Origin: Alphaproteobacteria bacterium | GTDB taxonomy: Bacteria > Pseudomonadota > Alphaproteobacteria > Rs-D84 | Reading direction: 5' to 3' | Assembly (NCBI GenBank): GCA_017937735.1 | Contig: JAGBCZ010000011.1 | Span: forward strand, 1 to 28,086 | DNA: 28,086 bases | Shown: one piece after another, positions 3,620 through 4,303 of the stretch | Position numbering within the stretch: position 1 is the first letter of the stretch | How the letters are laid out: every line of letters starts with the position of its first letter | The notes under the pieces: generated by a model | The model's database searches: none | What the model was told of the DNA's origin: nothing | The model's input: only the letters and a program-made list of their open reading frames with translations | Translations under genes and position numbers: made by a program

Positions 3620-3697
3620 AATAATAACCTTTACTTTTTTAAATTTAATTTTTAACTGATTTATTATAGAAATTTGTGCGGACCACCGCAATAGAAA
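3620..3697 (-). promoter_or_regulatory. thrS leader region with hairpin and possible SD-sequestering pairing
   Basis: Between leader-peptide stop and thrS start, a GC hairpin TGCGG-TGGT-CCGCA lies at 3690-3677. A second hairpin, CCCC-TTT-GGGG at 3714-3704, overlaps the end of the leader peptide. The sequence AGTAAAG at 3635-3629, which includes the thrS ribosome site, is perfectly complementary over 7 nt to CTTTACT at 3734-3728, at the start of the threonine codons. No T run follows either hairpin, so control of translation fits better than transcription termination. This structural reading is by eye only. Confidence 0.45.
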
Positions 3698-3754
3698 TTA
3701 CACCCCCAAAGGGGTTGTTGTAGTTGTAGTAAAGATAAATTTAAATAAATTCAT
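3698..3754 (-). CDS. Threonine-rich leader peptide upstream of thrS (18 aa)
   Basis: An ATG-started minus-strand frame encodes MNLFKFIFTTTTTTPLGV and then TAA. Six consecutive threonine codons use three different triplets (ACT ACA ACT ACA ACA ACC), so this is not a simple triplet repeat. It lies between a strong promoter and thrS. This is the arrangement of amino-acid leader peptides such as thrL, where ribosome stalling on codons for a scarce amino acid switches RNA folding. Finding it before the enzyme that charges tRNA-Thr is strong circumstantial evidence. The ATG falls at the predicted transcription start (about 3754-3755) and no good ribosome site precedes it, so it may be translated from a leaderless transcript. 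Expression is not shown by the sequence. Confidence 0.68.
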   Translation of the reverse strand: MNLFKFIFTTTTTTPLGV

Positions 3755-3761
3755 ATCTTAT

Positions 3762-3790
3762 ATAGTATTACCACATGATATAAATGTCAA
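3762..3790 (-). promoter_or_regulatory. Promoter for the thrS leader and thrS
   Basis: A consensus TTGACA (3790-3785) is separated by 17 nt from TACTAT (3767-3762) on the minus strand. The predicted start falls at about 3755, against the leader peptide ATG. The -35 box directly abuts the T run of the upstream terminator. Confidence 0.75.
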
Positions 3791-3860: not shown

Positions 3861-3907
3861 AATTCCCCTCCTTGGGAGGGGTGGTGGCTATGCCACCGGG
3901 GAGGGTT
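3861..3907. repeat. Palindromic inverted terminal repeat at the 3' side of the DUF559 gene
   Basis: The repeat has three parts: AATTCCCCTCC followed by its near complement GGGAGGGGTG; a small hairpin GTGGC-TAT-GCCAC; and CGGGGAGGGTT. The reverse complement of 4259-4303 has the same outer parts but a different central hairpin (CCCGTAGGG). The last codons and TAG stop of the DUF559 gene lie inside this repeat. Confidence 0.8.
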
Positions 3908-4256
3908 TAAGTTTCTCAATATTAAACCGTATCCACTCTAACACCCGTGGCATATCTTGTTTTACATCTTTATCTTCTATTCTCAATACGGTTATACCAA
4001 TTGAACGCATATATTCATCACGACCAACATCATATTCATATTTATCATCATGCGAAGAACCGTCAACCTCAACAACTAGTTTTAATTCCTTGCAATAAAA
4101 ATCAGCAATATAATTCCCTATTGGTTTTTGTTTAGTAAATTTTACCCCCAATGCAGAACGTTTTAATTCGTTCCACAATAACACTTCTGACAAAACACCC
4201 GCATGACGATTCATACGGGCAAAAACATTTAATTTTTTGTCATAAAGTTCAACCAT
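3888..4256 (-). CDS. DUF559 domain protein, Vsr/PD-(D/E)XK-like endonuclease fold
   Basis: The 122-residue protein matches the DUF559 pattern: SEVLLWNELKRSALGVKF, then KQKPIGNYIADFYCKELKLV, then VEVDGSSHDD. The likely catalytic residues are E24, D52 and E63/D65, as in very-short-patch-repair-like nucleases. The biochemical role of DUF559 proteins is not established. The gene is tightly enclosed by inverted palindromic repeats. The right repeat supplies GGGGAGGG as a ribosome site just before the ATG, and the left repeat supplies the last residues (KPSPVA) and stop. With the flanking 28-bp direct repeats this looks like a compact gene-carrying mobile unit. Family call confident; mobility inferred. 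Confidence 0.86.
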   Translation of the reverse strand: MVELYDKKLNVFARMNRHAGVLSEVLLWNELKRSALGVKFTKQKPIGNYIADFYCKELKLVVEVDGSSHDDKYEYDVGRDEYMRSIGITVLRIEDKDVKQDMPRVLEWIRFNIEKLKPSPVA

Positions 4257-4258
4257 TA

Positions 4259-4303
4259 AATAACCCTCCCCGCCCTACGGGCACCCCTCCTTGGGAGGGG
4301 AAT
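4259..4303. repeat. Palindromic inverted terminal repeat at the 5' side of the DUF559 gene
   Basis: This is the inverted partner of 3861-3907, reading AACCCTCCCCG, central hairpin CCCTACGGG, then CACCCCTCCTTGGGAGGGG and AATT. On the minus strand it places CGGGGAGGG about 10 nt before the DUF559 ATG. Its outer edge touches the stop codon of the hemolysin-III-like gene. Confidence 0.8.

Follow-up and report, generated by a model that had tools for sequence, protein, structure and literature searches.

Leader-peptide attenuation is a textbook mechanism for the control of biosynthesis operons. In E. coli, the thrL attenuator controls the biosynthetic operon thrABC via a leader peptide that is rich in Thr codons and contains Ile codons as well. 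Two known types of control of the threonyl-tRNA synthetase gene, thrS, do not involve a leader peptide: the translational operator of E. coli and the T-box of Gram-positive bacteria, which respond to the level of the synthetase or to uncharged tRNA. Among synthetase genes, pheST of E. coli does have a leader-peptide attenuator. In another variant, pyrBI of E. coli, the terminator is blocked by the ribosome itself, and UTP is sensed through polymerase pausing. Other leaders before synthetase genes have been described in Streptomyces, with attenuators before trpS and leuS (PMC1262725); in bacilli, with a His leader before hisZ and hisS* (PMC2965389); and in Streptomyces lividans, with leaderless leaders before leuS, trpS, and thrS as well as a leader before alaS (PMC8079986).

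We examined a putative leader upstream of thrS in a 28,086-nt stretch of DNA, hereafter the window (contig JAGBCZ010000011.1 of assembly GCA_017937735.1, Alphaproteobacteria bacterium, Rs-D84). The initial annotation of the window described a promoter, an 18-codon minus-strand frame with six Thr codons in three different triplets, a stop codon, a hairpin, and thrS. All of these elements are present, and the frame and its Thr codons are just as described (Table 1). The hairpin had been placed between the stop codon and thrS; it actually lies inside the end of the ORF (hairpin A), where it spans the last Thr codon and the Pro, Leu, Gly, and Val codons (codons 14–18). The three kinds of Thr triplet are followed by Pro-Leu-Gly-Val and then by TAA. 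On the minus strand of the window, the -10 box of P1 ends 7 nt ahead of the leader's ATG.

Table 1. Features of the thrS leader locus in the window (all on the minus strand).
Feature	Position	Strand	Remarks
Candidate promoter P1, TTGACA-17-TACTAT	3762..3790	-	Direct reading; -35 at 3790-3785, -10 at 3767-3762
Leader ORF, MNLFKFIFTTTTTTPLGV and stop, 18 codons	3698..3754	-	ATG at 3754, TAA at 3700-3698
Six consecutive Thr codons, ACT ACA ACT ACA ACA ACC (codons 9-14)	3713..3730	-	Proposed sensing codons
Hairpin A, ACCCC-TTTG-GGGGT, inside the end of the leader ORF	3702..3715	-	Proposed terminator stem; extendable over ACA...GT
U-rich tract 3' of hairpin A	3690..3697	-	Direct reading and T frequencies in relatives
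Hairpin B, TGCGG-TGGT-CCGCA	3677..3690	-	Stem kept in relatives
P2, second promoter-like element, TTGCGG-17-TATAAT, downstream of the leader	3663..3691	-	Sequence kept in relatives
thrS ribosome-binding site, AAAGG	3628..3632	-	Direct reading
thrS, threonyl-tRNA synthetase, 577 aa	1886..3619	-	ATG at 3619-3617; SAD, catalytic, and anticodon-binding domains

A domain search with the window's ThrS (with the query starting one codon upstream, at 3622) gave no match to the TGS domain. Across the window, there were no matches to Rfam at gathering scores, including to the T-box (RF00230) before thrS. Further upstream, stretches resembling CCCTCCC...GGAGGGG (3865-3910 and 4261-4300) flank a small DUF559 gene (3888-4256); together, the gene and these stretches may form a mobile unit that separates thrS from the neighboring gene.

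Counting both strands of the window together, there is a single run of six or more consecutive ACN codons, while the mean in 300 first-order Markov sequences was 0.0. The evidence for the leader is otherwise comparative, since neither the promoter nor the fold of a single sequence is above chance: the window contains 2 sites that match P1, with 2.0 expected, and the fold of the single upstream sequence is unremarkable (z = -1.2; 22 of 200 shuffled sequences were equally good).

We scanned genome contigs with ThrS and retained the best 80 of a larger number of thrS loci. At the nearest loci, two of which are from Candidatus Enterousia (the group, in order Rs-D84 according to PMC12306168, in which the window probably falls), ThrS is 81–94% identical to the window's ThrS, and the leader is present in all 24 of the upstream sequences that we inspected. 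Searching 183 genomes of the family gave a match to ThrS in every one; a few of these matches are weak and may be to other synthetases. We dropped L106 and L191, for which no start was placed, and merged identical upstream sequences. This left 139 distinct upstream sequences, of which 136 contain the leader. The exceptions are L073, L201, and L203, which has just 239 nt of upstream sequence. Among 19 further distinct upstream sequences from low-scoring genomes, 15 contain the leader under a lax rule (Thr, an optional residue, Pro, any residue, and Gly), and L222, L223, L224, and L236 do not. (This second count leaves out L216–L218, L225, L238, L239, L241, and L243–L245.) In total, of the 158 distinct upstream sequences from these Ca. 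Enterousia-like gut Alphaproteobacteria, 151 have a Thr-Pro-x-Gly leader ahead of thrS, with L233, which is identical to L073, counted once. Relatives with the same thrS and no Thr frame, which had been named beforehand as evidence against the leader, do exist, and they number 7 of the 158. Because a leader with Thr codons is conserved before thrS across the clade, it is probably a sensor of tRNA-Thr charging, as the initial annotation had suggested. Some of the divergent leaders have few Thr codons, such as MKKLFFVFAATITPFGV, and the conservation is that of one clade, not repeated evidence.

More distant thrS loci do not have this leader. In 54 of them (L024–L049, L052–L053, and L055–L080), we found no Thr-rich short ORF, defined as one in which 4 or more of 8 residues are Thr; the search covered up to 350 nt ahead of the first ATG in the thrS frame. 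As L073 is also among the seven leaderless relatives, 53 of these loci are independent. At a few such loci (L052 and L080), the first ATG is probably upstream of the real start of thrS; L023 and L050 were excluded from the count. In the 53 distant ThrS proteins, the region matching the window's ThrS is preceded by an N-terminal extension of 65 residues or more, and by our reading, most of these extensions open like a TGS domain. Those at the 26 loci with 55–61% identity (L024–L049) have an extra N-terminal part of 65–81 residues, and no leader. Another group, L227–L230, has ThrS proteins that are 86–88% identical to the window's ThrS across the first 140 residues and 55–56% identical overall. 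In these, a divergent sequence may have taken the place of the catalytic part, with the leader and the N-terminal part kept.

To compare the leaders' shapes, we used the 135 of the 136 leaders that could be parsed (L151 has a leader but no parse); 112 of the 135 were kept as a non-redundant set. P1 scored at least 9 of 12 in 122/135 parsed leaders and in 164/2,700 (6%) of shuffled upstream sequences, in a test where the real sequences could choose alternative in-frame ATGs and the shuffled ones could not. The gap from the end of the -10 box to the ATG is 6–10 nt in 130/135 leaders (4–13 nt was allowed). The predicted start of transcription is therefore the ATG itself or a site just ahead of it, which would give a near-leaderless mRNA.

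If codons are numbered backwards from the Pro codon, then Thr is present at position -1 in all 135 leaders, at -2 in 134, at -3 in 128, at -4 in 117, at -5 in 99, at -6 in 92, at -7 in 32, and at -8 in 5. Each leader has 3–8 Thr. Positions -1 and -2 are also within the stem of hairpin A, so they count for less as evidence about Thr. Positions -3 to -6 use all four Thr codons (ACA, ACT, ACC, and ACG). In the alignment of relatives' thrS upstream regions, which had been proposed as a check, the run of Thr codons is kept while the synonymous codons vary; therefore, it is the amino acid and not the DNA that is conserved. Across the 135 leaders, the peptide is highly variable in its N-terminal half, while the Thr codons and the hairpin are kept. 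The stop codon lies directly after the codon following Gly in 113/135 leaders and one codon later in the other 22.

The arms of hairpin A (ACCCC/GGGG) are found in 111 of the 112 non-redundant sequences, and the remaining one (L215) has a double change, to ACGCC/GGCG. The loop varies freely (TTT, CGC, GTT, TGC, CAC, and others). We also considered hairpin A as an anticodon mimic, as in the E. coli-type thrS operator, and rejected this reading because the loop is not conserved. When we searched seven genomes for the hairpin pattern, five had it once each and the other two lacked it; all five matches are before thrS by their coordinates, and the pattern read backwards was found in none. Behind hairpin A, T has a frequency of 56–87% at seven of the nine positions from +6 to +14 after the Gly codon; the exceptions are +9 (38% T and 58% C) and +11 (32% T and 50% A). 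This U-rich tract is interrupted, and it starts several nucleotides after the stem.

We did not find a general antiterminator helix when we searched the 112 sequences for alternative partners of at least 5 bp. The GGGG arm has such a partner upstream in 1/112 sequences and downstream in 5/112, compared to 19% and 29% of shuffled sequences, as if competition were avoided. The CCCC arm has an upstream partner in 0/112 and a downstream partner in 21/112 (shuffled sequences, 1% and 5%). The downstream stretch for the CCCC arm runs from the leader's stop codon to the start of thrS and includes the ribosome-binding site of thrS. This downstream pairing is a minority signal above chance. RNAalifold, run on 109 sequences, kept just three pairs of hairpin A; this is a weak test, as it missed hairpin B too.

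TTG is at the expected place after the leader in 110/112 sequences (L117 and L134 lack it there), and we used these 110 to study P2 and hairpin B. Their -10 boxes are TATAAT (82), AATAAT (24), or others (4). The TG of an extended -10 box is found in 24/24 sequences with AATAAT versus 1/82 with TATAAT. With the spacing unconstrained, the first TATAAT or AATAAT after TTGC or TTGT is still at a spacer of 16–17 nt in 102/110. L203, which has no recognizable leader, retains TTGCGA-17-TATAAT. Hairpin B has a stem of at least 4 bp in 109/110 sequences, compared to 44% of shuffled sequences and 93% of arm swaps between genomes. Its arm types include GCGG/CCGC, GCGA/TCGC, GCAC/GTGC, and GTGC/GCAC, and by the swap control, the covariation of the arms is modest. 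Hairpin B overlaps the -35 box and the spacer of P2. It is unlikely to be a DNA operator: its loop ranges from 3 to 15 nt, unlike a dimer site with fixed spacing.

We then asked if other synthetase genes in the family have leaders with their cognate codons, using 96 regions upstream of 16 synthetase genes in seven genomes. The cognate amino acid ranked first of 20 at thrS (z = 8.7; 7/7), cysS (z = 6.2; 6/7, namely L347–L351 and L353), ileS (z = 5.6; 7/7, L253–L259), hisS (z = 4.6), lysS (z = 2.3, which is weak), and serS (z = 1.6; 2/6, L286 and L289). It did not rank first in the seven genomes at valS, leuS, proS, glyS, tyrS, trpS, pheS, aspS, alaS, or metG. Cognate-first ranks in 6 of 16 families correspond to P = 8e-5, which is generous, as thrS, ileS, and serS had already been seen when the idea arose; hisS, cysS, and lysS were examined later. 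Overall, the upstream sequences clearly point to cognate leaders at hisS, cysS, and ileS and suggest some at serS; lysS and trpS may perhaps have them too.

These candidate leaders are not all built alike. Before cysS are MTIRFINFYCCC and variants of it, each ended by a stop codon. The Ile leaders before ileS (MNTKTIIIIK, MKINTIIIIK, MNKKTIIIIK, MNTSKVIIIR, and others, each followed by a stop codon) have a strong terminator-like hairpin and a T run after the stop, as in classical attenuation. The two Ser leaders before serS, MKFTFVFFSSISSPFGE and MKFVFLSLRHSSSPFGVRI, also run to a stop codon and have CCCC/GGGG hairpins, in a layout like that of thrS.

For hisS, we searched 113 genomes, of which 106 had a match, and sampled 30 loci (L342–L346 and L377–L406 were noted). 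By a strict rule, 27/30 have a leader with HH, and by a looser rule, all 30 have a His leader. In every one of the 27 HH leaders, a GC-rich stem (5 bp or longer) lies within the ORF, either on the His codons or past them. The sequences of these stems vary (CACGCCC/GGGTGTG, CACGCCA/TGGCGTG, CGCCC/GGGCG, TGCCC/GGGCA, and others). The stem at hisS lacks a T run immediately downstream, so a simple terminator seems less likely at this gene. By the looser rule, the gap from the -10 box to the ATG is 6–12 nt (3–14 nt was allowed). About 18 nt after the stop codon of the leader, 16/30 loci have a TATAAT-like box at the same offset, and 10/30 have none.

We noticed a few other features upstream of synthetase genes. 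Two of seven trpS loci (L314 and L315) have 18-aa ORFs that end in CWRFAA or CWRFVA before the stop codon, with a GGCG/CGCC stem at the end of the ORF. At lysS (L334–L337 and L339), very short ORFs that contain Lys are followed by a GTGCGACCA-like stretch, and where there is enough sequence, by a terminator-like hairpin after that stretch. Upstream of aspS, L328–L333 contain a GGGTGGCACCGCG-like motif (AGGGTGGCACCGCG in L332), which is presumably the core of a T-box; L341 has AAGGTGGCACCACG. Three of these loci (L331, L332, and L333) have weak matches to RF00230 (26–28 bits, E = 0.02–0.06, versus a gathering score of 93), and the other aspS loci submitted to the Rfam comparison have no match. 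Divergent T-boxes in Alphaproteobacteria are possible.

The leader, its Thr codons, hairpin A, the U-rich tract, and the sequences of P1 and P2 are conserved together with the arrangement seen in the window. As for how they might work, we give about an even chance to a leader-peptide attenuator that senses the charging of tRNA-Thr, in which the ribosome would occlude the embedded hairpin A. From the sequences, we infer translation of the leader, termination at hairpin A, the activity of the promoters, and the direction of the response. P1 would give a short RNA that begins at the leader's ATG or a few nucleotides before it. If charged tRNA-Thr is plentiful, then the ribosome would clear the ORF and exit at the stop codon just behind hairpin A; the freed hairpin would fold, and transcription from P1 would end. 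If charged tRNA-Thr is scarce, then the ribosome would wait on a Thr codon and cover hairpin A, RNA polymerase would read through, and thrS expression would rise. P2 would provide a basal level of leader-free thrS mRNA.

Several observations favor occlusion by the ribosome. As no general antiterminator was found, direct occlusion is favored over a classical switch. The embedded hairpin with His codons at hisS and the cognate leaders at ileS and cysS in the same genomes also speak for an attenuator. According to PMC4824070, full folding of a hairpin requires about 10–15 nt between it and the A site of the ribosome. With hairpin A starting 3 nt ahead of the Pro codon, its folding should be blocked by a ribosome that waits anywhere from codon -1 to about codon -5 or -6. 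The Thr codons are concentrated at -1 to about -6, which matches this predicted boundary at about codon -5 or -6.

Some observations tell against occlusion. A well-translated leader could suppress hairpin A even when Thr is plentiful. The U-rich tract is offset and interrupted, and the stem at hisS does not have a T-rich stretch directly behind it. Transcripts from P2 would bypass the leader, and seven of the 158 thrS genes do without it. Also, occlusion leaves the downstream pairing of the CCCC arm unexplained.

The alternative that fares best, though we consider it rather unlikely, is that control is post-transcriptional: a stalled ribosome would change how the RNA is cleaved in the U-rich region that separates hairpins A and B, and the thrS RNA further downstream would have its 5' end protected by hairpin B. 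This would account for a U-rich linker between two conserved hairpins, and hairpin B would exist in transcripts from P1 only; the stem at hisS, with no T run directly behind it, would fit as well. But because hairpin B overlaps the -35 box and spacer of P2, its conservation may partly be that of promoter sequence, and the fact that most swapped arms still pair also argues against this explanation.

Less probable still is the reverse logic, in which the translating ribosome would suppress the terminator at hairpin A, read-through would report good translation, and a shortage of Thr would lower it. There is a precedent: according to PMC4824070, trailing ribosomes in E. coli constructs almost fully repress terminators near a stop codon, and termination is expected to increase as translation slows. 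However, the Thr codons are positioned where a waiting ribosome would cover hairpin A rather than expose it, and there would be little physiological benefit in making less synthetase when charged tRNA runs short.

The initial annotation favored translational control, with the region around codons 8–9 of the leader pairing with the ribosome-binding site of thrS unless a stalled ribosome covers it. The 7-nt complementarity on which this was based (3734-3728 with 3635-3629, CTTTACT/AGTAAAG) is exact. In the window, the pairing comprises 9 pairs, including one G-U and a further A-U, and is part of the centroid fold. But across the 112 non-redundant relatives, we saw no covariation for this pairing: the native duplexes average -7.17, versus -7.08 for swapped ones (sd 0.18), and 633 of 2,000 permutations were as low or lower. 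Placing a ribosome on the Thr run makes the ribosome-binding site more open by over 0.1 in 18/112 relatives; but it becomes less open in 5/112, and the mean predicted openness hardly moves (0.47 vs. 0.49; in the window itself, 0.39 to 0.47). We now think that this mechanism is very improbable. Least probable of all is a role in trans for the terminated leader RNA or for the leader peptide, with control of thrS being secondary. The leaderless trpL attenuator RNA (rnTrpL) and the peptide peTrpL do act in this way in Sinorhizobium meliloti (PMC7298713), but at thrS the N-terminal half of the peptide is far more variable than the Thr codons and the hairpin, and the hairpin pattern is single, and before thrS, in the five genomes that have it.

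Returning to occlusion of hairpin A by the ribosome, the sister genes suggest a broader proposal, in which our confidence falls a little short of even. These reduced-genome Alphaproteobacteria may control charging synthetase by synthetase with leader peptides, as a functional counterpart to the T-boxes of Gram-positive bacteria; thrS, hisS, and serS would use a minimal attenuator that requires only the ribosome, with the cognate codons on a hairpin that ends the transcript and a second promoter directly behind. Rs-D84 bacteria such as Ca. Enterousia are reported to lack pathways for amino acid biosynthesis (PMC12306168), and yet they appear to retain amino-acid-specific leaders on their charging enzymes. 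If the embedded-hairpin design holds, then it needs fewer parts than the classical attenuator with four segments, and it might be transferred to a laboratory host. The cognate leaders also suggest a natural set of single-amino-acid sensors, along with a way to recognize leaders of this kind in unannotated genomes.

It's useful to compare this leader to the known systems. Like E. coli's thrL, it is rich in Thr, but thrL controls biosynthesis and not charging. The E. coli operator and the T-box control the same gene, thrS; here, there is no match to the T-box and no conserved loop in hairpin A. The synthetase attenuators at trpS, leuS, hisZ/hisS*, alaS, and pheST share the use of cognate codons in a short ORF before the gene. 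In the classical ones, a terminator and an antiterminator follow the cognate codons, whereas at thrS, the hairpin is inside the ORF and we found no general antiterminator. In having a putative terminator inside the leader ORF, thrS resembles pyrBI of E. coli (PMC4824070), but the signal for pyrBI is UTP, and for the thrS leader it would be the Thr codons. Among the matches listed in the open-licence literature (subscription papers fall outside it), we found no such leaders in the Ca. Enterousia-like clade. The initial annotation's view that this design had not been described for thrS needs correction, given thrL of S. lividans TK24, which by its published description is a leaderless 18-aa leader with two Thr directly before thrS (PMC8079986). 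Judging by that description alone, the two are alike in this respect; the S. lividans leader differs in having just two Thr and one hairpin without a U-rich stretch, and in being from Actinobacteria. So, this type of leader, and even thrS as its gene, is already known. As far as our literature search shows, what is new is the clade, the deep conservation, the layout in which a promoter follows an embedded hairpin, and the occurrence of a set of cognate leaders within a single reduced genome.
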